From Alphaproteobacteria bacterium (GTDB taxonomy: Bacteria > Pseudomonadota > Alphaproteobacteria > Geminicoccales > Geminicoccaceae): 52,209 nucleotides of DNA. Made by a program: the position numbers and the translations under genes. This document shows, one piece after another, positions 142 through 11,485 of this stretch; position 1 is the first letter of the stretch; every line of letters starts with the position of its first letter. The stretch lies in the NCBI GenBank assembly GCA_026982705.1, contig JALSGP010000030.1:1-52209 (forward strand), written 5' to 3'. Below the pieces are notes generated by a model, which was not told where the DNA came from, searched no databases, and worked only from the letters and a program-made list of their open reading frames with translations.

Positions 142-585
142 TCATTCGACGACGAAAGTGATGGTCTCCGACTCGCCACCGCGCGGCGTCCTCAGCTCGA
201 ACACGCCACCACGGATCGGCACGAAGGTGATGGAGAGCTCCCCCTCACCCTCGAACTCGAAACTCTCGACGCCGAAGGGGCGGATCTCCACGTCCTCGAC
301 GGCGATTTCGTTGATCCAGATGTTCCGGAAGAAGGACGGCCCCACGAGGACGAACTCGTCGGTTCCGTCGGAGACGAGCTTCAACTGATAGTATTTGCCG
401 GCCTCGAGCCGGATCGGTTCGGTGGCGAAGGGCTTCCGCAGGGTGAGCTCGACGGGGGGCAGCTTGATCCGCTTGCCCACCAGTCCCCGTTTCGCCCCCT
501 CGGCGAGCGCGGGGCCGGCGACCCCCGTGCAGGCCAGCAGCAACACTGCCGTCAGCCGTGTCGCGATTCCCTTCTTCATCGTCAT
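142..585 (-). CDS. small exported beta-rich protein of the PQQ-dehydrogenase cluster
   Basis: A 147-residue protein with a signal peptide (MKKGIATRLTAVLLLACTG, cleavage near PALAEG). The mature part is short alternating hydrophobic strands, and the pattern GKYYQLKLVSDGTDEF ... ITFVPIRGGVFEL resembles a cupredoxin-like sandwich. The mature chain contains no Cys, His or Met, so it cannot be a blue-copper protein even if the fold is right. ATG 585 overlaps the upstream stop as ATGA; ATG 579 (MKKG) is an alternative that sits better behind the GGAGGA. It is the last complete gene of the xoxF-linked cluster, so a periplasmic accessory role to the dehydrogenase is inferred. I do not recognise a characterised family. 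Confidence 0.8.
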   Translation of the reverse strand: MTMKKGIATRLTAVLLLACTGVAGPALAEGAKRGLVGKRIKLPPVELTLRKPFATEPIRLEAGKYYQLKLVSDGTDEFVLVGPSFFRNIWINEIAVEDVEIRPFGVESFEFEGEGELSITFVPIRGGVFELRTPRGGESETITFVVE

Positions 586-1583: not shown

Positions 1584-2809
1584 TCCTCCGCTTCGTCGAG
1601 CCGGCAACGGCTCTCGGGCCTGTCGTAGCCGAGCGTATCCAGAGGATTGCGCTGGTGGAGGAACTTGTCCTGGGGCGACAGCGAGACGGTGTTGCGCGCC
1701 CAGGCCAAGAGGATCCTGTGCCGCAGTTGCTGGTTCCACGGCCGGAAGGTCAGGCCGACACCCTTGTACGCGCCCACGATGAAACGATCGGAACGCAGAT
1801 AGTCGCGCACCGTCGCGGCATCGGTCCGACCGGTGCGCAACGCCGCCTCCACCAGGATCCGCACCGCCAGCCAGCCGAGATAGTCGCGTTCGGTGGCATG
1901 CCGTCCCGCGAAGTCGTCGAAGGCTTCCTGGAACTGCATGCCTGCGTAGAATTCGTAGCTGCGGTGCCAGACGCGTGGCACGAGGCCGAAGCTGCCGACC
2001 ACGGGAGCCGGATCGGTGGTGTTGTACGGCAGATAGAGACCGAAGGCCTCGGTGGTGTCCACGACCCAGAGCACGTCGTGGGCCGGGGCCCCCACGGTGA
2101 ACAGGGGCATCTGGGTCTGGATCTGCTGATAGCCGGACTCCACTCGCCGGGAACCCACCCGGAACTCGTATTCCCGGGTCTCGACGATCTTGCCGGCGAA
2201 CCGTTTCGCCGCCCGCTCCAGAGCCGCCATGAAGGCATCGTCCGAGTCCGCGACGCCGCGGATCACCAACCACCGATACCACCGCTTCCAGACCAGGAAC
2301 TGGGCCAGCGCATCGGCCAACATGGCATAGCTGGGGGCCACGTGGAACAGGTTCGCCCGACAGGCCTCGACCCGCAGGAGGTCGTCCCGGGCCCGGATAT
2401 TCAGCAACACCGCCTCGCCCGCTTCCGGCAGATCGGCGACGGCCAACAGATCCGGTGCCTCGAGGTCGAGCACGAAGAGCCGCTCGCCGTCGGCGAGCAG
2501 ATCCCGGGCTCGTGCGGCGACGTCCTCGTCTTCGGGCACGATCACCTCGGTCAGCTCATATTCCTGTCCGAGGAAACGGCCGATGTGGCGTGCCTCTGCG
2601 AGGCCGAAGCGAGCGCCCACGAGGCCCTTGTCAGGGATGGGTTTTTCGACGAGCGACAGTGGCAGAGGCTCACGGTAAGCCTTGCCCAGGTACACCATCC
2701 GTAGTCGGAAGGCCGCCTGCCCGTCCGTCGCCGCCCCGGCCGGGCCGCGGGGGACGACGGTGGCCCATGCACCGAGGACGAGCAGGATGCCCACCAACAG
2801 CCTGATCAT
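1580..2809 (-). CDS. ABC-type substrate-binding protein, PQQ-dependent alcohol dehydrogenase system
   Basis: 409 residues with a clear signal peptide (MIRLLVGILLVLGAWATVV) and a periplasmic type-I binding-protein body (QAAFRLRMVYLGKAYREPL ... RDYLRSDRFIVGAYKGVGLTFRPWNQQLRHRI). The ending, with an SPQDKFLHQRNPLDTLG stretch, is characteristic of the PQQ-ABC binding protein family (TIGR03863 type), a divergent Leu/Ile/Val-binding-protein relative. The ligand is unknown. The gene overlaps its neighbours by ATGA at both ends, so it is translationally coupled to the cytochrome c gene upstream and the propeller downstream. The family occurs with quinoprotein dehydrogenases, which fits the xoxF gene here. 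Confidence 0.88.
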   Translation of the reverse strand: MIRLLVGILLVLGAWATVVPRGPAGAATDGQAAFRLRMVYLGKAYREPLPLSLVEKPIPDKGLVGARFGLAEARHIGRFLGQEYELTEVIVPEDEDVAARARDLLADGERLFVLDLEAPDLLAVADLPEAGEAVLLNIRARDDLLRVEACRANLFHVAPSYAMLADALAQFLVWKRWYRWLVIRGVADSDDAFMAALERAAKRFAGKIVETREYEFRVGSRRVESGYQQIQTQMPLFTVGAPAHDVLWVVDTTEAFGLYLPYNTTDPAPVVGSFGLVPRVWHRSYEFYAGMQFQEAFDDFAGRHATERDYLGWLAVRILVEAALRTGRTDAATVRDYLRSDRFIVGAYKGVGLTFRPWNQQLRHRILLAWARNTVSLSPQDKFLHQRNPLDTLGYDRPESRCRLDEAEE

Positions 2810-3651
2810 CGCCCTTCGACCGCCATGACGTCCCCGCCGCCGGCACCGCGGCACCGTTCGGGATCGTAGCCGCCGAGCGACTGGACGAATGCGACGATCT
2901 TCCACACTTCGTCGGAAGTCTCGATCAGTTCGCCGAAAGGTGGCATCGGTCCGACGACGTTTTCCCGGCCCTTACGGACGTAGCCGGCTCCCTGCAGCCC
3001 TTCGGAACCCAGCGTGATCAGGCGGAACAGGGTATCGTCGTCGCAGCCGTAGACCCAGACGGGATTGCTCAGGGGCGGCCCCATGCCCCCGCCGCCGCTG
3101 CCGCCGTGACACCCGTTGCACGAATAGCCGAGGAAGTATTTTCGTCCTTCCGCCACCGCGGCGGGATCGTCCCGATAGGGATTGGCGAGGCCGCCCACGG
3201 CCGTCTGCTCCACCAGTGCGAGGGGAGGTGGCGATTCCAGAGCCGCGGCCGCCCGCTCCGCCTGTCGTTGCGCTTCCGCCCGCAACTCGTCCGTGGCTGC
3301 CTCGCAGCCCACGGCGAACAACCCTCGGCTGCCGATCGGGCCGAAGTAGAGAAGGGTGCACACGCGATCGTCGTCGGTGACCACCAGACGCGGCGTGTTC
3401 GCCTGCAGCTCCACCTCATCCTCCCGGAACCGAATCCGGGCACGATGTCGTTCGAGACCGAGTACCTTCACCTCCACGCGACTTTCGTCGAAGCGCGCGG
3501 AATCGCCCGGGGCGATCTTCCGTTGTTCCACGGGGATCGGAAAATCCAGCTTCGGGGCGTTCGGATCCTGCACCGCCGCTTCGAGGAAGCCGGCGCCGCC
3601 GAGCATCAGCGCACAGGCGGTTCCGATCAAGATGGCACGACGCATTTTCAT
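2806..3651 (-). CDS. periplasmic c-type cytochrome, probable electron acceptor of XoxF
   Basis: 281 residues. A signal peptide (residues 1-26) is followed by an N-terminal domain of about 95 residues with a Cys pair (C98, C116) that could form a disulfide. A single cytochrome c domain follows, with haem motif C178-NG-C181-H182 and a likely axial Met236 in VVGPMPPFGEL. The final helix EVWKIVAFVQSL is typical of small class I cytochromes. Methanol dehydrogenases pass electrons to a dedicated cytochrome c encoded nearby (XoxG/MxaG in known systems), and position makes this the natural candidate. The extra N-terminal domain differs from plain XoxG, so I do not assign the symbol. ATG 3651 overlaps the preceding stop as ATGA. 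Confidence 0.88.
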   Translation of the reverse strand: MKMRRAILIGTACALMLGGAGFLEAAVQDPNAPKLDFPIPVEQRKIAPGDSARFDESRVEVKVLGLERHRARIRFREDEVELQANTPRLVVTDDDRVCTLLYFGPIGSRGLFAVGCEAATDELRAEAQRQAERAAAALESPPPLALVEQTAVGGLANPYRDDPAAVAEGRKYFLGYSCNGCHGGSGGGGMGPPLSNPVWVYGCDDDTLFRLITLGSEGLQGAGYVRKGRENVVGPMPPFGELIETSDEVWKIVAFVQSLGGYDPERCRGAGGGDVMAVEGR

Positions 3652-5465
3652 CGACCCGCTTCCCCCTTCTTTTCCCGACTTCCTTCGGTTGGCGTCGCCT
3701 TCGCGACGAGTCGCAAGGCCTGTTCCGCCCCTCGACGATGATACTTTCGCGCGAGATCGAGAGCCGTCTCCCCGCGCCGATTGCGTATCGTGGGATCGGC
3801 ATTCCGCGACAGCAGGAATCCCAGCATCGCACCGTTGTCGTTGGCCGCCGCGATCATGAGCGCGGTCATGCCCTCGGTGCTCCGGGCGTCCACGTCCGCT
3901 CCCCGCTCGACCAGCATCGCGGCGAGTTCGGTCACTCCCGGACCACCGGCCACACGCTTGAGCCGCGCGAAGGCCTCGTCCTGGGCCGCGAGCAACATCA
4001 GCGGCGTGACGCCGAACTCGCCGATGCGTTCGTTCACGTCCGCACCGAGTTCGATCAGTGCCGCGGCGGCCCACCGCTTGCCCTCGCTCAGCGCCAGAGC
4101 GAGGGGTGAGAGCCCGGCCGGCCCTCCCTTGCGTCCGAGATCGGCACCGCGAGAAACCAGCAACTCGATGGTCGGCACGTGATTGCGAAGCACGGCATGA
4201 TGGAGTGCCGTGAATCCGGACCGATCGGTGGCGTCGACATCCGCCCCTGCCTCGAGCAGGAGTCGGATCATCCGCGTGTCACGATTCTGCGCGGCGATCA
4301 CGAGGGGAGGGAACCCCTGCCGATCCGGTGCGTTCGGATCGGCGCCACGCTCGAGGAGAAAACGGACCCGTTCGAGATCCGATGCGAGCACCGCACGCGC
4401 CAATTCCGTTCGGAGATCGGCGCCGGCGGCCAGGGCCCGGGCCACCTCTTCCACCGTGACGATCTGGTCCGGACTGGCCAAGCGCGGATCCGGGCGGAAG
4501 GCCGACGGGTCCACCGGTTCGAGAAAGCGCGCCCGGTACGCGGCCGCGTCCGTGATACGGTAGGGGCCATGGCTCGGCAGGTCGCCATCCACCACACAAC
4601 GACCGCAGCGTACGAGCGGGACGCCGTAGTCCCGAAGAATGCGGCGGATATCCTCCTCTCGCCGCAGCAGGGCATAATCGAGGGCGAACTTCAACACCGC
4701 ATGGGTGCGGGGGACGGCGAACGCCAAGTCGAACTCGAGCGGGACATCGTCGTCCCACAGATTGACCGGCACGAGCTCGATGGGGTCACCCAGCACCTTG
4801 CGCCAACCGGCGAACGGCCCCCACACGCCGGCGATGTCCAGCCGGCCGTTCACGACCATCTCCACCAGCCGCCAGGGCTGATGCTCCGGAACCAGATCGG
4901 CGTCGCGCGAGACGGCGAGCAATTCCACGTCCTTGATGCCGTACCGCGCCAACACCTGCCGGATCGCCGAGGTCTGGTAGACACCTATACGTCGCGTCCG
5001 CAGATCCTCGTCATCGAACCCCGCGATCTCGAAATCAGCATCCTGCCGTTTGACGAATACATAGGTGGTCCGATAGATCGGTTCGGTTGTCAGAACGTCC
5101 TCGTGTCCATAGGGAATGTCGATCAGAATATCACAGCGTCCGTAGCGGAACGGTTCCCGAGTGAGGCCGCGTTCGTAGAAGGGGCGCCAGTAGTATGAAG
5201 CACGCGCGCCGAGTTCCTCGGCAACGATTTCGGCAATTCGGTTCAGATAACCGTCACGATCCCGGGTCGACAGCGGAGGATTGCCCGGATCGGCGCAGAA
5301 GGTGAGCTCCTGGTAGCGTGCGTTCCTGCCGAGCCTTTTGGCGAGGGTGATCTCGGCCGGGGTCAGGCGTTCGTAGGGGATCTCGCGGACCACCTCCTGC
5401 GCGACCGCCGGCGTCGCGAACCCGGCAACGATCAAGCATGTCAAGAGGTTGGCGGACCGACGCAA
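3648..5465 (-). CDS. MxaJ/XoxJ-like periplasmic binding protein fused to ankyrin repeats
   Basis: 605 residues from a TTG start at 5465, chosen because GGGGAGGGAAGG lies just upstream and because the farther ATG (5537) would place a transcription terminator inside the gene. A signal peptide (RRSANLLTCLIVAGFATPAVA) leads into a family-3-like solute-binding domain at about residues 40-320 (ELTFCADPGNPPLS, RYGRCDILIDIPYG, TTYVFVK, GRLDIAGVWGPFAG). This matches the quinoprotein-dehydrogenase-associated MxaJ type. From about 340 to 590 run six or seven ankyrin repeats (RVRFLLERGADPNAPDRQGF, GFTALHHAVLRNHVPTIELL, GMTALMIAAANDNGAMLGFL). MxaJ/XoxJ is thought to help assemble or activate methanol dehydrogenase; XoxJ itself is a single domain. 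An exported ankyrin array is unusual and could dock XoxF or the cytochrome. Confidence 0.88.
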   Translation of the reverse strand: MRRSANLLTCLIVAGFATPAVAQEVVREIPYERLTPAEITLAKRLGRNARYQELTFCADPGNPPLSTRDRDGYLNRIAEIVAEELGARASYYWRPFYERGLTREPFRYGRCDILIDIPYGHEDVLTTEPIYRTTYVFVKRQDADFEIAGFDDEDLRTRRIGVYQTSAIRQVLARYGIKDVELLAVSRDADLVPEHQPWRLVEMVVNGRLDIAGVWGPFAGWRKVLGDPIELVPVNLWDDDVPLEFDLAFAVPRTHAVLKFALDYALLRREEDIRRILRDYGVPLVRCGRCVVDGDLPSHGPYRITDAAAYRARFLEPVDPSAFRPDPRLASPDQIVTVEEVARALAAGADLRTELARAVLASDLERVRFLLERGADPNAPDRQGFPPLVIAAQNRDTRMIRLLLEAGADVDATDRSGFTALHHAVLRNHVPTIELLVSRGADLGRKGGPAGLSPLALALSEGKRWAAAALIELGADVNERIGEFGVTPLMLLAAQDEAFARLKRVAGGPGVTELAAMLVERGADVDARSTEGMTALMIAAANDNGAMLGFLLSRNADPTIRNRRGETALDLARKYHRRGAEQALRLVAKATPTEGSREKKGEAGR

Positions 5466-5566: not shown

Positions 5567-7438
5567 TCAGCTGATCGGCTTGCGAAGCCGGAAGGTGTAG
5601 AGCGTGCCGCCCTGCGGGATCGTATAGAGCTTGGACGCCTTGGCGATCGCGGTGGCACCGATGGCACCGAACCGGTCGTTCCAGTCGAGCCCGGCGGTCA
5701 CCGGCAGACCGATCCAGCCACCGATACCGGCGAACACCGACACATACTGGACCCCGTCGATCTCGTATGTGATCGGATTGCCGATGATACCGGATCCGAG
5801 CTTGCGCTCCCAGAGGATCTCACCGGTATCGCGGTCGACCGCCCGGAAGTGCCCGCTCAGTGAGCCGTAGAAGACGAGACCGCCGTCGGTGACGAGCACG
5901 CCGCTCCAGTTGGGAAACGGATCCGGGATCTCCCACAGCGTCTCGCCGGTGAGGACGTCGAACTTCTTCAGCTTTCCGGTAATGCCGGGAACTTCGGGAT
6001 ACATGTAGACGTTGGCGAAGACGTAGACCGTGCCCTGCTGCGTATGGGTCCGCGGCTGCGGCGTATCCTCCATGCACCAGTTGTTGGTCGGCACATAGAA
6101 GATGTTGGGCTCCTTCGGATCCACGGCCGCCGGCTGCTGATCCTTGCCGCCCATCGCCGACGGGCAGGCCTGGACCGTCTTGCCCACCTCGAAGGGCGAG
6201 TGCTCCTTGACCTTGATCGGCCGCCCCGTCTCGAGATCGACCTTCTCGGCCCAGTTGACGGTCACGAATTTGTGCGCCCGCAGGAGCGTGCCGTCGGTCC
6301 TGTCGAGCACGTACGCGAACCCGTTGCGGTCGAAATTGACCAGAACCTTCCTCTTCTTCCCGTCGACCTCCATATCGACGAGAATGTTTTCATTGACCCC
6401 GTCATAATCCCACTGATCGAAGGGCGTCTTTTGGTAGGCGAACACCGCCTCACCGGTATCCACCCTGCGACCGAAAATCGTCATCGACCACTTGTTGTCC
6501 CACTTGCCGGTGTTGCACTCCTCGTGCGTGTCGGCGCCACACCGGAAGGAGGGAGACCAGTGACCGGGGTTGCCGGTCCCCACATAGACCATCCGCAGAA
6601 CGGGATCGTAGCTGAACCAGGCCCAAGGCGCACCACCACCCAGTTTCCATTCACCCTCCGGCCAGGTGGTGATCCCGAGATTCTGACCATAGGTCCCGAA
6701 ATGGGGATTGGCCTTGTTCGTCTCCGGCGTCAGACAGACGTCCTCGTCGGTACCGGTGGAATGACAGACCCACACGCGCTCACCGGTCTCGAGATCGTAG
6801 GCGGTCAGTCGGCCCCGCGCGGCGAATTCGTCACCGCCGAAACCCACGATGACGTATTTGTCGGCGATGATCACCGGCCCGGTGTGGGTCTCGCCCTTCT
6901 CGGGATAGTTGTTTCGGACCACCCACAACTCTTCGCCGGTACGGGCATCCAGAGCGATCACCCAGCCGTCGAGCGTGCCGAAGACGATCTTGCCATCCGC
7001 GTACGCGAGACCACGGTTGATGGTGTCGCAGCAGGCCCTCGGCACCGCGGATTCATCGCGGTCCGTGGTCTTCACGTAGCTCCAGACCTGAACCGGATTG
7101 TCCGGGTCCGACAGATCGAGCGCCTGGACGATGTTCGGCCAGGGGCTCACGAAGAACATCATCGGCTTGCCGTCGATGGGAACGACGATCGGCTGCCCTT
7201 CGTGGCCGCGCAGGGCACCCGTCGACTGCGCCCAGGCCAGCTCCAGATTGGCGACGTTCTCCTTGTTGATCTGCTTGAGAGGTGAATGTCGGGTCATGGC
7301 CAAGTCGCGCCCCGGCGCCGGCCACCACCTGGGATCCTTGGCCAGCTCGACGATCTCGGGATTCGCCTGCGCGGACGCGGCCACCAACGCCAGCGTCGCG
7401 ACCCCCATCAGGGGCGTGAACCATCGATGCCTGAGCAT
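5567..7438 (-). CDS. xoxF: lanthanide-type PQQ-dependent methanol/alcohol dehydrogenase
   Basis: 623 residues: an N-terminal signal peptide (cleavage near ASAQANP) and an eight-bladed quinoprotein propeller with repeated W-docking motifs (GEELWVV, GEILWERKLG). The adjacent-cysteine disulfide C136-C137 (RACCDTINRG) over the PQQ site is present. Metal and catalytic residues by comparison with known enzymes are E204 (GGDEFAARG), N290 (GTGNPGHWSP) and D344. The residue two after the catalytic Asp is D346 (WDYDGVNEN); this extra Asp marks the lanthanide-dependent XoxF branch, where calcium-dependent MxaF has Ala. It oxidises a primary alcohol, most simply methanol, in the periplasm and passes electrons to cytochrome c. 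ATG 7438 follows AGGGAGAGGGG. No mxaI-type small-subunit gene is seen. Confidence 0.95.
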   Translation of the reverse strand: MLRHRWFTPLMGVATLALVAASAQANPEIVELAKDPRWWPAPGRDLAMTRHSPLKQINKENVANLELAWAQSTGALRGHEGQPIVVPIDGKPMMFFVSPWPNIVQALDLSDPDNPVQVWSYVKTTDRDESAVPRACCDTINRGLAYADGKIVFGTLDGWVIALDARTGEELWVVRNNYPEKGETHTGPVIIADKYVIVGFGGDEFAARGRLTAYDLETGERVWVCHSTGTDEDVCLTPETNKANPHFGTYGQNLGITTWPEGEWKLGGGAPWAWFSYDPVLRMVYVGTGNPGHWSPSFRCGADTHEECNTGKWDNKWSMTIFGRRVDTGEAVFAYQKTPFDQWDYDGVNENILVDMEVDGKKRKVLVNFDRNGFAYVLDRTDGTLLRAHKFVTVNWAEKVDLETGRPIKVKEHSPFEVGKTVQACPSAMGGKDQQPAAVDPKEPNIFYVPTNNWCMEDTPQPRTHTQQGTVYVFANVYMYPEVPGITGKLKKFDVLTGETLWEIPDPFPNWSGVLVTDGGLVFYGSLSGHFRAVDRDTGEILWERKLGSGIIGNPITYEIDGVQYVSVFAGIGGWIGLPVTAGLDWNDRFGAIGATAIAKASKLYTIPQGGTLYTFRLRKPIS

Positions 7439-7622: not shown

Positions 7623-8249
7623 TCAGTCCAGTCGATGGCGAATGGCGAAACGGAGAAGCTCGGCGCGATTGCGCAGGCCGAGTTTGCGACGCATGCCGGC
7701 AGCCGTGTTGGCCGCCGTCTTGTAGCTGATCGCGAGGGCGTCGGCGATCTCGGACAGACTGTGTCCCGCGGCCATCATCTTGAGCACCTGGAGTTCCCGG
7801 GGGGTGAGACAGGCGATGGGATCGCCCGCCCCGGTCGTGGAAGCGACGGCAAGGCGCACGGCGATGCGGTGTTCGAGGAACACTTCGCCCCGCTCGATGG
7901 CCGTCACGGCCTCCGAGAAGAGCTCGGGATCCGCGCTCTTGGTCAGGAAACCGGAAGCTCCCACCTTCAGTGCCGCCGCTGCGAGGGCGGGGCTCTCGTG
8001 CATGGTGAAGACCAGCACGCGCGTCTCCGGGAGCCAGTGCCGGAACCGCTCGATCAGAACGAGCCCCTCTTCGTCCCCCAGTCCGAGATCGAGGACCACG
8101 AGCGCCGGCCGCTCCGACCGGACCAGGGCACGTGCCTCGGCACCGTCCCGGGCGGTCAGAATGCGGCCGTAGCCGAGTTCCTCGAGGATTCGGGTGCAGG
8201 CGAAATGGGTGATCGGGTGGTCGTCCACCACGAGTGCCGTCTTGGTCAT
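7623..8249 (-). CDS. NarL/FixJ-type response regulator, probable xoxF regulator
   Basis: 208 residues. The N-terminal receiver carries the acidic pair D9-D10, phospho-acceptor D54 (VVLDLGLGD) and the switch Lys in GFLTKSADPE. A C-terminal LuxR helix-turn-helix covers about residues 145-205 (LTPRELQVLKMMAAGHSLSE, AISYKTAANTAAGMRRKLG). ATG 8249 overlaps the kinase stop codon as ATGA, so the two are coupled. It is the gene immediately upstream of xoxF on the same strand with 184 bp between them. Two-component systems control methanol dehydrogenase in several methylotrophs, so control of xoxF is a reasonable inference. Confidence 0.92.
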   Translation of the reverse strand: MTKTALVVDDHPITHFACTRILEELGYGRILTARDGAEARALVRSERPALVVLDLGLGDEEGLVLIERFRHWLPETRVLVFTMHESPALAAAALKVGASGFLTKSADPELFSEAVTAIERGEVFLEHRIAVRLAVASTTGAGDPIACLTPRELQVLKMMAAGHSLSEIADALAISYKTAANTAAGMRRKLGLRNRAELLRFAIRHRLD

Positions 8250-9619
8250 CTCTCCCCCCGAACCGCCTCTCCTCCCCCCTGGTCGCCCTCGTCGGGGATC
8301 CACGCCCGGATCCGCGTACCCTTTCCGCAAGCCGTCTCGACCTCGAACGACCCTCCCAGGCCCTGCACGCGTTCGCGCATGCCGTGAAGCCCGAGTCCCC
8401 GAGTACACCGCGTGTCGAAACCGCGACCGTCGTCCGCGACGAGCACGCGGAAGCCGTCACCCTCTCGCCGAATCGCGACCCGCACATGCGAGGCACGTGC
8501 ATGTCGCAGAACGTTGGTGACCGCTTCCTGGATCAGACGATAGATGGTGACCTGGGCGACCTCGCCCGCCCGATCGACGGCGGGATCCAGTTCCACGGAC
8601 CAGTCCATCCCTTCGCTTCGGAGGGCGCTCTCGCTCAGCAGCTCACCGATCTGCTGGGTGAACCGCACACCGGGCGGCCGGATCGGACGCAGATGGGCCA
8701 GCACCCGCCGCTGCGCCTCCTCCAGAGTCCGAACCACGTGGAGGAGTGCTTTCGAGCGATTGGCGAGCTCCTCCTTGCCGGCGTCTCGTCGGATCGCGCG
8801 CTCCAGTCCCGCGAGCTCGGCACGCAGGGCGAAGAGACATGGGCCGACCTCGTCGTGCAGCTCGAGTGCCACGGCCCGCCGCTCCGCGTCTTCGGCCGCC
8901 ACCAGCCGTCGGGTGAGCGCCTCCCGCTCGGCACGGGTGCGGCCCAGCTCCCGCATCAGGGCGTTGAAGGTTTCGACCAGGGGTACCAGTTCCCCGATGG
9001 CCGGAGGCTCCAGCCGCACGTCCAGATCGCCGCCCCGGGCCCGTTCCAGGGCCTCGCGGAGCTTGCGCAGCGGACGCAGGGCCCAGACGGTGCCCGCCCA
9101 CACCGCCGTCGTCAGGATACCGAAACCGAGACCGCCGATCACGAGGATTCCGCGCAGATCACGCCAGATCTCGACGATCTCGTCCCGCGGATCGGCGATG
9201 ACCAGGACCTTGCCGTAGGTGCGCCCGTCGACCACCACGGCGATCTCACTGCTGCGCGCGGACACGGCCAGGGAAGCGTACAGCCACCACGGGACATCCC
9301 CGTGGCGAACGCCCTCTTCCACGGTCGGCTGAGGATCTCCCCGGCTGTCCACTACGAGGAAACGGACATGACGCGCGGTCGGAAGGCGCCCCGCGAGTTC
9401 GGCCATGAGGTCCACGCGAGGGACGACCGGTACCAGGGACGCCAAGGTGGCGCGGACGAGTCCGACCGCGAGACGTTCGCTCGCGGCGAGCTCTTCCTGC
9501 ACCGCCTCACGGGCATTGGCGAGAAGCGCCGCGAACGTCAATACACCGATGAGCAGCTCGACTCCGAGGACGAGAACCATCAATCGCGTGATCAAGGACC
9601 ATCGCCGTCCGCAATCCAT
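8246..9619 (-). CDS. NarX/UhpB-type sensor histidine kinase
   Basis: 457 residues. TM1 lies at about residues 8-33. A periplasmic sensor of about 120 residues follows, then TM2 at 157-180, a HAMP linker (LRPLRKLREALERARGGDL) and a HisKA_3 dimerisation domain with phospho-acceptor H255 (ALELHDEVGP). The HATPase has an intact N-box (IYRLIQEAVTNVLRHARA) and G1 box (VADDGRGFD), so the kinase looks active. ATG 9619 is preceded by only weak ribosome-site sequence, and an upstream GTG remains possible. It is coupled to the response regulator by ATGA. No gene is evident in the 280 bp upstream (9620-9899). The signal is unknown; proximity suggests alcohols, formaldehyde or lanthanides. Confidence 0.92.
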   Translation of the reverse strand: MDCGRRWSLITRLMVLVLGVELLIGVLTFAALLANAREAVQEELAASERLAVGLVRATLASLVPVVPRVDLMAELAGRLPTARHVRFLVVDSRGDPQPTVEEGVRHGDVPWWLYASLAVSARSSEIAVVVDGRTYGKVLVIADPRDEIVEIWRDLRGILVIGGLGFGILTTAVWAGTVWALRPLRKLREALERARGGDLDVRLEPPAIGELVPLVETFNALMRELGRTRAEREALTRRLVAAEDAERRAVALELHDEVGPCLFALRAELAGLERAIRRDAGKEELANRSKALLHVVRTLEEAQRRVLAHLRPIRPPGVRFTQQIGELLSESALRSEGMDWSVELDPAVDRAGEVAQVTIYRLIQEAVTNVLRHARASHVRVAIRREGDGFRVLVADDGRGFDTRCTRGLGLHGMRERVQGLGGSFEVETACGKGTRIRAWIPDEGDQGGGEAVRGER

Positions 9620-10935: not shown

Positions 10936-11408
10936 TGGACGGACTACCGCGACGGGGCGCTTCACGTGCGGCAGAGCAAGACCGGGCGCCCCGTGGTGAT
11001 TCCGGTCATCGGGCCCCTGGCGGAAGCGCTCGAGACAGCACCGCGCGTTGCCACGGTGATCGTGGCGGACGAGCGGGGCCTGCCTTGGAGCGCCCATCAT
11101 TTCCGCCATGTGTTCAAGCGCATCATGCGCGCGGCGGGTGTCGAGGGCGTGCGGTTCCAGGACCTGCGCCGGACCGCCATCGTGCGGCTCGCCGAGGCCG
11201 GCTGCACCGTGCCCGAAATCGCCGCCATCAGCGGCCACCAGATCGACGACTGCCAGCGCATCCTGGAGGTCTACCTGCCACGCACCCGCCGCCTGGCCGA
11301 GAGGGCCGTGGTCAAGCTGCTACGGAACGGAACCGGTACGCGAGGCCCCAAAGGAGGCCAACGCGGTGTCCAACGAGTCCAACGCGCCATGGCCAAGTCC
11401 TCGAGAAC
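10936..11408 (+). pseudogene. C-terminal half of a tyrosine recombinase/integrase
   Basis: Similarity begins at TGG 10936 (WTDYRDGALHVRQSKTGRPV) just after an in-frame TGA. It covers the C-terminal catalytic half: the beta-hairpin Lys region (QSKTGRP), the box II region FQDLRRTAIVRLAEAG (with Gln where His is usual, QDLR), SGH, and the nucleophile Tyr in EVYLPRT. The N-terminal core-binding domain and the first catalytic Arg are absent, so it is a broken gene. The frame has no stop of its own and continues through the adjacent tRNA gene to 11688. The orientation, running into the 3' end of a tRNA, is typical of an integrase at its attachment site. Confidence 0.85.
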
Positions 11409-11485
11409 TGGTGCGCCCGGCGGGATTCGAACCCACGACCCTCGGATTAGGAATCCGATGCTCTATCCTGCTGAGCTACGGGCGC
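11409..11485 (-). tRNA. tRNA-Arg(CCT), CCA encoded
   Basis: A complete cloverleaf on the minus strand: acceptor GCGCCCG pairs with CGGGCGC, D arm GCTC/GAGC, anticodon stem TCGGA/TCCGA with loop TTCCTAA (anticodon CCT), and T arm with GTTCGAAT. The discriminator A is followed by an encoded CCA (11411-11409). The gene is intact, so integration at its 3' end, if it happened, restored the sequence. Confidence 0.96.

Follow-up and report, generated by a model that had tools for sequence, protein, structure and literature searches.

The 52,209-nucleotide stretch of alphaproteobacterial DNA considered here (the window, from a member of the Geminicoccaceae) carries, immediately behind a gene for a lanthanide-type methanol dehydrogenase (xoxF), a gene for a real, conserved and exported protein that joins XoxJ to seven ankyrin repeats. 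We consider it somewhat better than an even bet, at a probability of roughly 0.55, that this gene specifies a XoxJ dedicated to the XoxF1-type lanthanide methanol dehydrogenase and extended by a C-terminal seven-repeat ankyrin docking arm, probably for XoxF1 itself. The same architecture recurs in 14 genomes belonging to two bacterial classes, always next to xoxF.

The fusion gene and its product

The genes of the cluster lie on the minus strand in the order xoxF, fusion gene, cytochrome c, TIGR03863 binding protein, TIGR03866 propeller and a small gene (Table 1), in agreement with the initial annotation of this DNA, which had placed the fusion gene directly after xoxF and fifth from the window edge. 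The best start is the TTG at 5465, which has a strong Shine-Dalgarno sequence (GGGGAGGGAAGG) just upstream, and the stop codon is at 3648-3650. A plain signal peptide is predicted at the N terminus (MRRSANLLTCLIVAGFATPAVA followed by QE); most of the homologues also have a hydrophobic N-terminal leader, and three of them (L057-L059) have the lipobox LVAAGC and are predicted lipoproteins. The initial annotation had read the protein as an exported MxaJ/XoxJ-like domain and an ankyrin array in one frame, and the domain profiles, signal peptide and homologues all bear this out.

Table 1. Features of the xoxF1 cluster and its surroundings in the window
Feature	Coordinates	Strand	Remarks
XoxJ-ankyrin fusion gene	3648..5465	minus	605 aa, TTG start, Shine-Dalgarno GGGGAGGGAAGG
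Signal peptide region	5397..5465	minus	residues 1-23, MRRSANLLTCLIVAGFATPAVAQ, predicted from sequence
XoxJ/MxaJ-type binding domain	4611..5306	minus	residues 54-285, TIGR03871
CxxC (C287, C290)	4596..4607	minus	just after XoxJ domain; GDLPxHG next in most members
Variable linker	4452..4559	minus	residues 303-338
Ankyrin array, seven repeats	3690..4451	minus	residues 339-592, fifth repeat with ~20-aa insertion
xoxF, XoxF1 type	5567..7438	minus	623 aa, lanthanide motif WDYDG
Cytochrome c, XoxG1-like	2806..3651	minus	N-terminal extension of ~110 aa
Periplasmic binding protein, TIGR03863	1580..2809	minus	413.2 bits; LutA-like by position in published xoxF1 cluster
YVTN beta-propeller, TIGR03866	582..1583	minus	423.2 bits; LutB-like by position
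LuxR-type response regulator	7623..8249	minus	upstream of xoxF
Histidine kinase	8246..9619	minus	weak LapD/MoxY-type periplasmic domain match

A domain search of the translated protein matched both the XoxJ-type domain and the ankyrin families. The profile for quinoprotein dehydrogenase-associated binding proteins (TIGR03871) aligns with the window protein over model positions 2-232 of 232 at about 207.6 bits, the curated cut-off being 212.15, and is matched by all 14 homologues (best E=8.3e-76). By phmmer, the fusion protein finds the solved XoxJ 6ONP at E=9.7e-31 over 234 residues and the MxaJ entries 9ISM and 5SV6 at E=3e-21 and 1e-16, respectively; with the MoxJ equivalog TIGR03870, which describes the MxaJ of the calcium enzyme, it scores 96 bits, under the required 258.1. 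The fold of this half is taken from sequence homology, because two attempts with AlphaFold2 (three sequences each) gave a poor model of it, in which much of the domain had pLDDT under 50.

The ankyrin half is modelled far better than the XoxJ half. Five Pfam ankyrin families score well above cut-off on residues 339-592 (Ank_4 at E=3.8e-32, Ank_2 at E=3.3e-30), and an AlphaFold2 model from three sequences has seven helix pairs between residues 343 and 592, with pLDDT of about 90 over most of 340-590, so that of the "six or seven" repeats first counted it is seven that stands. A structure comparison of the full model returned DARPins and ankyrins with Z up to 26.8 (DARPin 6MOJ); its matches were taken up by ankyrin chains, and it is uninformative on the XoxJ half. 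The insertion of about 20 residues in the fifth repeat is absent from six members (L041, L053 and L056-L059).

Between the two halves lies a CxxC motif that, in the alignment, is invariant in the fusions (14/14) and found in no unfused XoxJ (0/24). It would, we infer, form a disulfide or bind a ligand in the XoxJ-ankyrin form only.

The neighbouring dehydrogenase

The closest solved relative of the window XoxF is 7O6Z, with 62% identity over aligned columns; identity falls to 51% with 4MAE, 47% with 6OC5 and 44% with 4TQO, which we take to be XoxF2, XoxF5 and MxaF, respectively. 7O6Z was published as an XoxF1-type enzyme (PMC8546591), and the other clade names follow general usage and that paper. 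The lanthanide-binding aspartate occurs in the window XoxF in the motif WDYDG, as in 7O6Z, the corresponding motif of MxaF being WDYAG. When trees were built with XoxF1, XoxF2, XoxF5 and MxaF as references, the XoxFs found beside the fusion formed one clade with 7O6Z, with support of 1.000. By these sequence comparisons the window xoxF is of the XoxF1 type. A diverged member is found at locus L055 (genome G1421), which has the binding motif CADPANMP instead of CADPGNMP and a XoxF with WDYDA instead of WDYDG.

Distribution and evolution of the fusion

With the XoxJ domain and the whole protein as queries, the full-length fusion was recovered in 14 genomes of two classes, that of the window included. 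One carrier belongs to the window's family (G002) and another to its class (G681), while others fall in a different class of the same phylum, which we take to be Pseudomonadota (G770, G832, G882, G1275, G1343, G1357, G1397, G1421 and G1437); the named carriers, both Alphaproteobacteria, are Methyloceanibacter sp. MO_226.B1 and Methylorubrum rhodinum DSM 2163. All 14 proteins align end to end and have seven repeats, and in 14/14 loci the gene immediately follows xoxF. Among the 13 loci where the contig reaches far enough, 12 have a cytochrome gene, 13 the propeller gene and eight the TIGR03863 gene. The survey of xoxF loci that the initial annotation proposed thus finds the fusion to be clade-wide in these XoxF1 operons and not a one-off.

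The possibility that assembly error, frameshift or chance joined two reading frames, of which a frameshift at the junction had been foreseen by the initial annotation, can be given almost no credence. The same join, with an aligned junction, occurs in 14 separate genomes, single-contig chromosomes among them, and chance and artefact are excluded because 13 more full-length homologues share the architecture of the window protein and dN is well below dS in close pairs. For the three closest pairs, dN/dS is about 0.16, 0.12 and 0.31 in the ankyrin part and 0.07, 0.06 and 0.26 in the XoxJ part, from which it follows that the array is kept by selection, albeit less tightly than the XoxJ domain. Mean pairwise identity is 41% in the ankyrin part and 49% in the XoxJ part, i.e., the ankyrin part evolves somewhat faster.

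Two kinds of match were set aside. A 1250-aa frame in L057-L059, which might be taken for a larger fusion, arises where a frame happens to stay open across xoxF; the real gene is of about 570 aa. Ankyrin-only matches in Methylophilaceae and similar records (L036-L038) have no xoxF, XoxJ or cytochrome match nearby. In plasmid records, no place covering 80% of the fusion protein was found, and the three that were examined carried unfused or rhodanese-fused XoxJ.

As a guard against circularity, XoxF alone was used for an independent search of the window's family (31 genomes) and of the order around G770 (150 genomes). The family yielded two XoxF1-like genes (100 and 78% identical), its other XoxFs being at 49% or less, and the order yielded six (58-71%) and two others at 44-48%. 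In these two groups the genomes with an XoxF1-like gene (58% or more), eight in all, coincide exactly with those that have the fusion; two of the eight, the window and G770, were the centres of the search, leaving six free of that selection. The other XoxFs of the same family and order (44-49%) are accompanied by XoxJ proteins that either stand alone or carry a rhodanese-like domain. A sample of 239 genomes from the class contained no XoxF1-like gene besides that of the window, and hence none without the fusion. In 24 XoxJ proteins of other clusters, neither ankyrin repeats nor CxxC was found.

The fused XoxJ domains form a single clade in the tree (support 0.991), and tree and distribution together fit a single origin of the fusion, after which the operon was inherited as a unit or transferred. 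Counts of the fusion with XoxF1 are therefore not independent of one another, the association resting on one ancestral fusion. The spread is patchy, in that three other genomes of the window's genus (one only 74% complete) are without XoxF1. Among the genomes sampled, XoxJ takes the form of the ankyrin fusion in these XoxF1 operons.

Other genes and other XoxJ fusions

Several features of the surrounding DNA deserve mention in their own right. The N-terminal extension of the XoxG1-like cytochrome, of about 110 aa, is common to L039 and L040 and not recognisable in L035, L041, L052 and L054; co-variation of the ankyrin array with this extension was considered and rejected, since several members are without it. 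After the propeller gene, a 147-aa exported protein is encoded (142-585, minus strand) that has no Pfam match and no homologue in the other loci. The segment at window positions 10966-11485, some 1.4 kb upstream of the kinase gene, holds a C-terminal integrase fragment (plus strand) beside a tRNA-Arg gene (CCT, 11409-11485, minus strand), which may mark the border of a mobile element near the xoxF1 cluster.

A second kind of fusion, XoxJ followed by a rhodanese-like domain, occurs in the window's own genome (L002, contig C12, 1375-2757) and also in L007, L008, L009, L012, L014, L015, L019, L022 and L091, the last on a plasmid of Azospirillum lipoferum. Most have a CxxCW-type motif, and the Pfam rhodanese profile matches in L002 and falls just under cut-off in L008. 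This form is widespread in the window's family, where XoxF5 is the prevailing type of enzyme. In L002 a cytochrome c gene (830-1387) directly precedes the XoxJ-rhodanese gene and a gene for a pentapeptide-repeat protein (2756-3583) directly follows it.

Relationship to known systems

For Methylorubrum extorquens AM1, losing xoxJ affects growth just as losing xoxF does (PMC7391723), and a proposal that XoxJ helps PQQ insertion is cited in PMC8170126; in the solved entry 9ISM, MxaF and MxaJ chains are found together. Given these genetics, this proposal and this entry, the fused XoxJ domain most likely acts likewise on XoxF1. The XoxJ of strain AM1 (6ONP), whose partner is of the XoxF5 type, has the same binding-protein domain and is encoded with xoxF and xoxG, but its 284-residue chain leaves no room for an ankyrin array. 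MxaJ (9ISM, 5SV6), the partner of the calcium enzyme MxaF, also has this domain but is more distant and stops after it.

The view that XoxJ/MxaJ is a single-domain protein does not hold in general, as is evident from the XoxJ-rhodanese-like proteins described above, one of them in the window's genome, and from the XoxG/J fusion (cytochrome cGJ) published for Methylacidiphilum (PMC8170126). The latter is also a XoxJ fusion in lanthanide methanol oxidation, but it is from Verrucomicrobia and the partner is the cytochrome, not an ankyrin array. A published counterpart of the locus is the xoxF1 cluster of Methylocella silvestris (Msil_3149-3146), in which xoxF1, xoxJ1, xoxG1 and a gene for an ABC-type LutA-like binding protein are consecutive (PMC9291206); the order is that of the window, with a LutB-like propeller adjacent, and the ankyrin content of Msil_3148 is not stated there.

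Ankyrin repeats were said at the outset to be uncommon in exported bacterial proteins, a statement to be qualified by periplasmic cases that do exist, e.g., AnkB of Pseudomonas aeruginosa. Catalases with an ankyrin gene beside their own depend on its product for activity, probably through haem (PMC7567364); Cj1386 of Campylobacter jejuni traffics hemin to the enzyme, and AnkB is periplasmic (PMC7567364, PMC2830190). AnkB and Cj1386 offer an analogy, as ankyrin proteins required for the full activity of a redox enzyme, but they are stand-alone proteins that serve catalase and have no XoxJ. No paper linking xoxF or quinoprotein dehydrogenases to ankyrin repeats was found in the literature searched, and earlier mention in subscription papers is possible. 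XoxJ and ankyrin parts are all known; a protein that combines them and is strictly tied to XoxF1 appears to be undescribed.

What the ankyrin arm may do

By analogy with characterised relatives, the XoxJ half would bind XoxF1 and help in its activation, by PQQ or metal loading. The ankyrin array would add a further surface for docking to a protein, XoxF1 itself being the most probable one, and such an arm would retain the apo-enzyme or ensure that XoxJ pairs with XoxF1 and not with XoxF5 in cells that have both. XoxF1 is the best candidate for the partner of the array because it is the product of the only gene always directly beside the fusion, a choice made from gene neighbourhood, which partners encoded elsewhere would escape. 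The propeller is a weaker candidate, since its gene, present in all 13 readable loci, varies in position and its product is only 28-31% identical in five. More tentatively, and as a possibility we would not call probable, the protein may be a two-handed maturation chaperone for XoxF1, with the XoxJ half docked on the dehydrogenase, the ankyrin arm gripping a second site of the apo-enzyme and the CxxC taking part in cofactor hand-over.

The initial annotation had instead pictured the array as holding XoxF, the cytochrome and the extra cluster proteins together, as a dedicated maturation or electron-transfer platform. In the terms used here, this would be a scaffold for electron transfer or metal delivery on which XoxF1, its cytochrome (XoxG1) and the LutA/LutB-like proteins are brought together. 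The grouping of these genes in one operon at most loci and, in the window, the overlap of four bases (ATGA) between the fusion-gene stop and the cytochrome start are what such a platform would lead one to expect. The cytochrome and the extra proteins fit less well: the 16.6-kb Methyloceanibacter locus (L034) has no xoxG, in L052, L054 and L055 xoxG and the fusion are separated, L041 and L056-L059 lack the TIGR03863 gene, and not all members have the XoxG extension, so that none of the three tracks the array as strictly as xoxF1 does. Since xoxG or the LutA-like gene is missing from some of the clusters, we regard the platform as rather unlikely. Still less probable is an array that makes no contact with the dehydrogenase and serves to tether XoxJ close to the membrane or the cell wall, or does no more than stabilise it. 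Ankyrin arrays are often stable modules, and the predicted lipoproteins among the fusions would suit a tether; against this, the arm is kept only with XoxF1 and not with the XoxF5 partners of the same family, and a mere stabiliser would have little reason to follow a single type of enzyme.

How XoxJ/MxaJ activates methanol dehydrogenase is an unsettled question, and XoxF1 is a rarer type of XoxF with high affinity for methanol (PMC8546591, PMC12482762). A XoxJ that is tied to one XoxF type and has a binding arm of its own offers a way to learn to what, and at which stage, XoxJ binds; Methylorubrum rhodinum DSM 2163, which encodes the fusion, is a possible test system. If the two-handed chaperone were true, these bacteria would have a loading device reserved for XoxF1, by which that enzyme is kept apart from XoxF5 where both share a periplasm.
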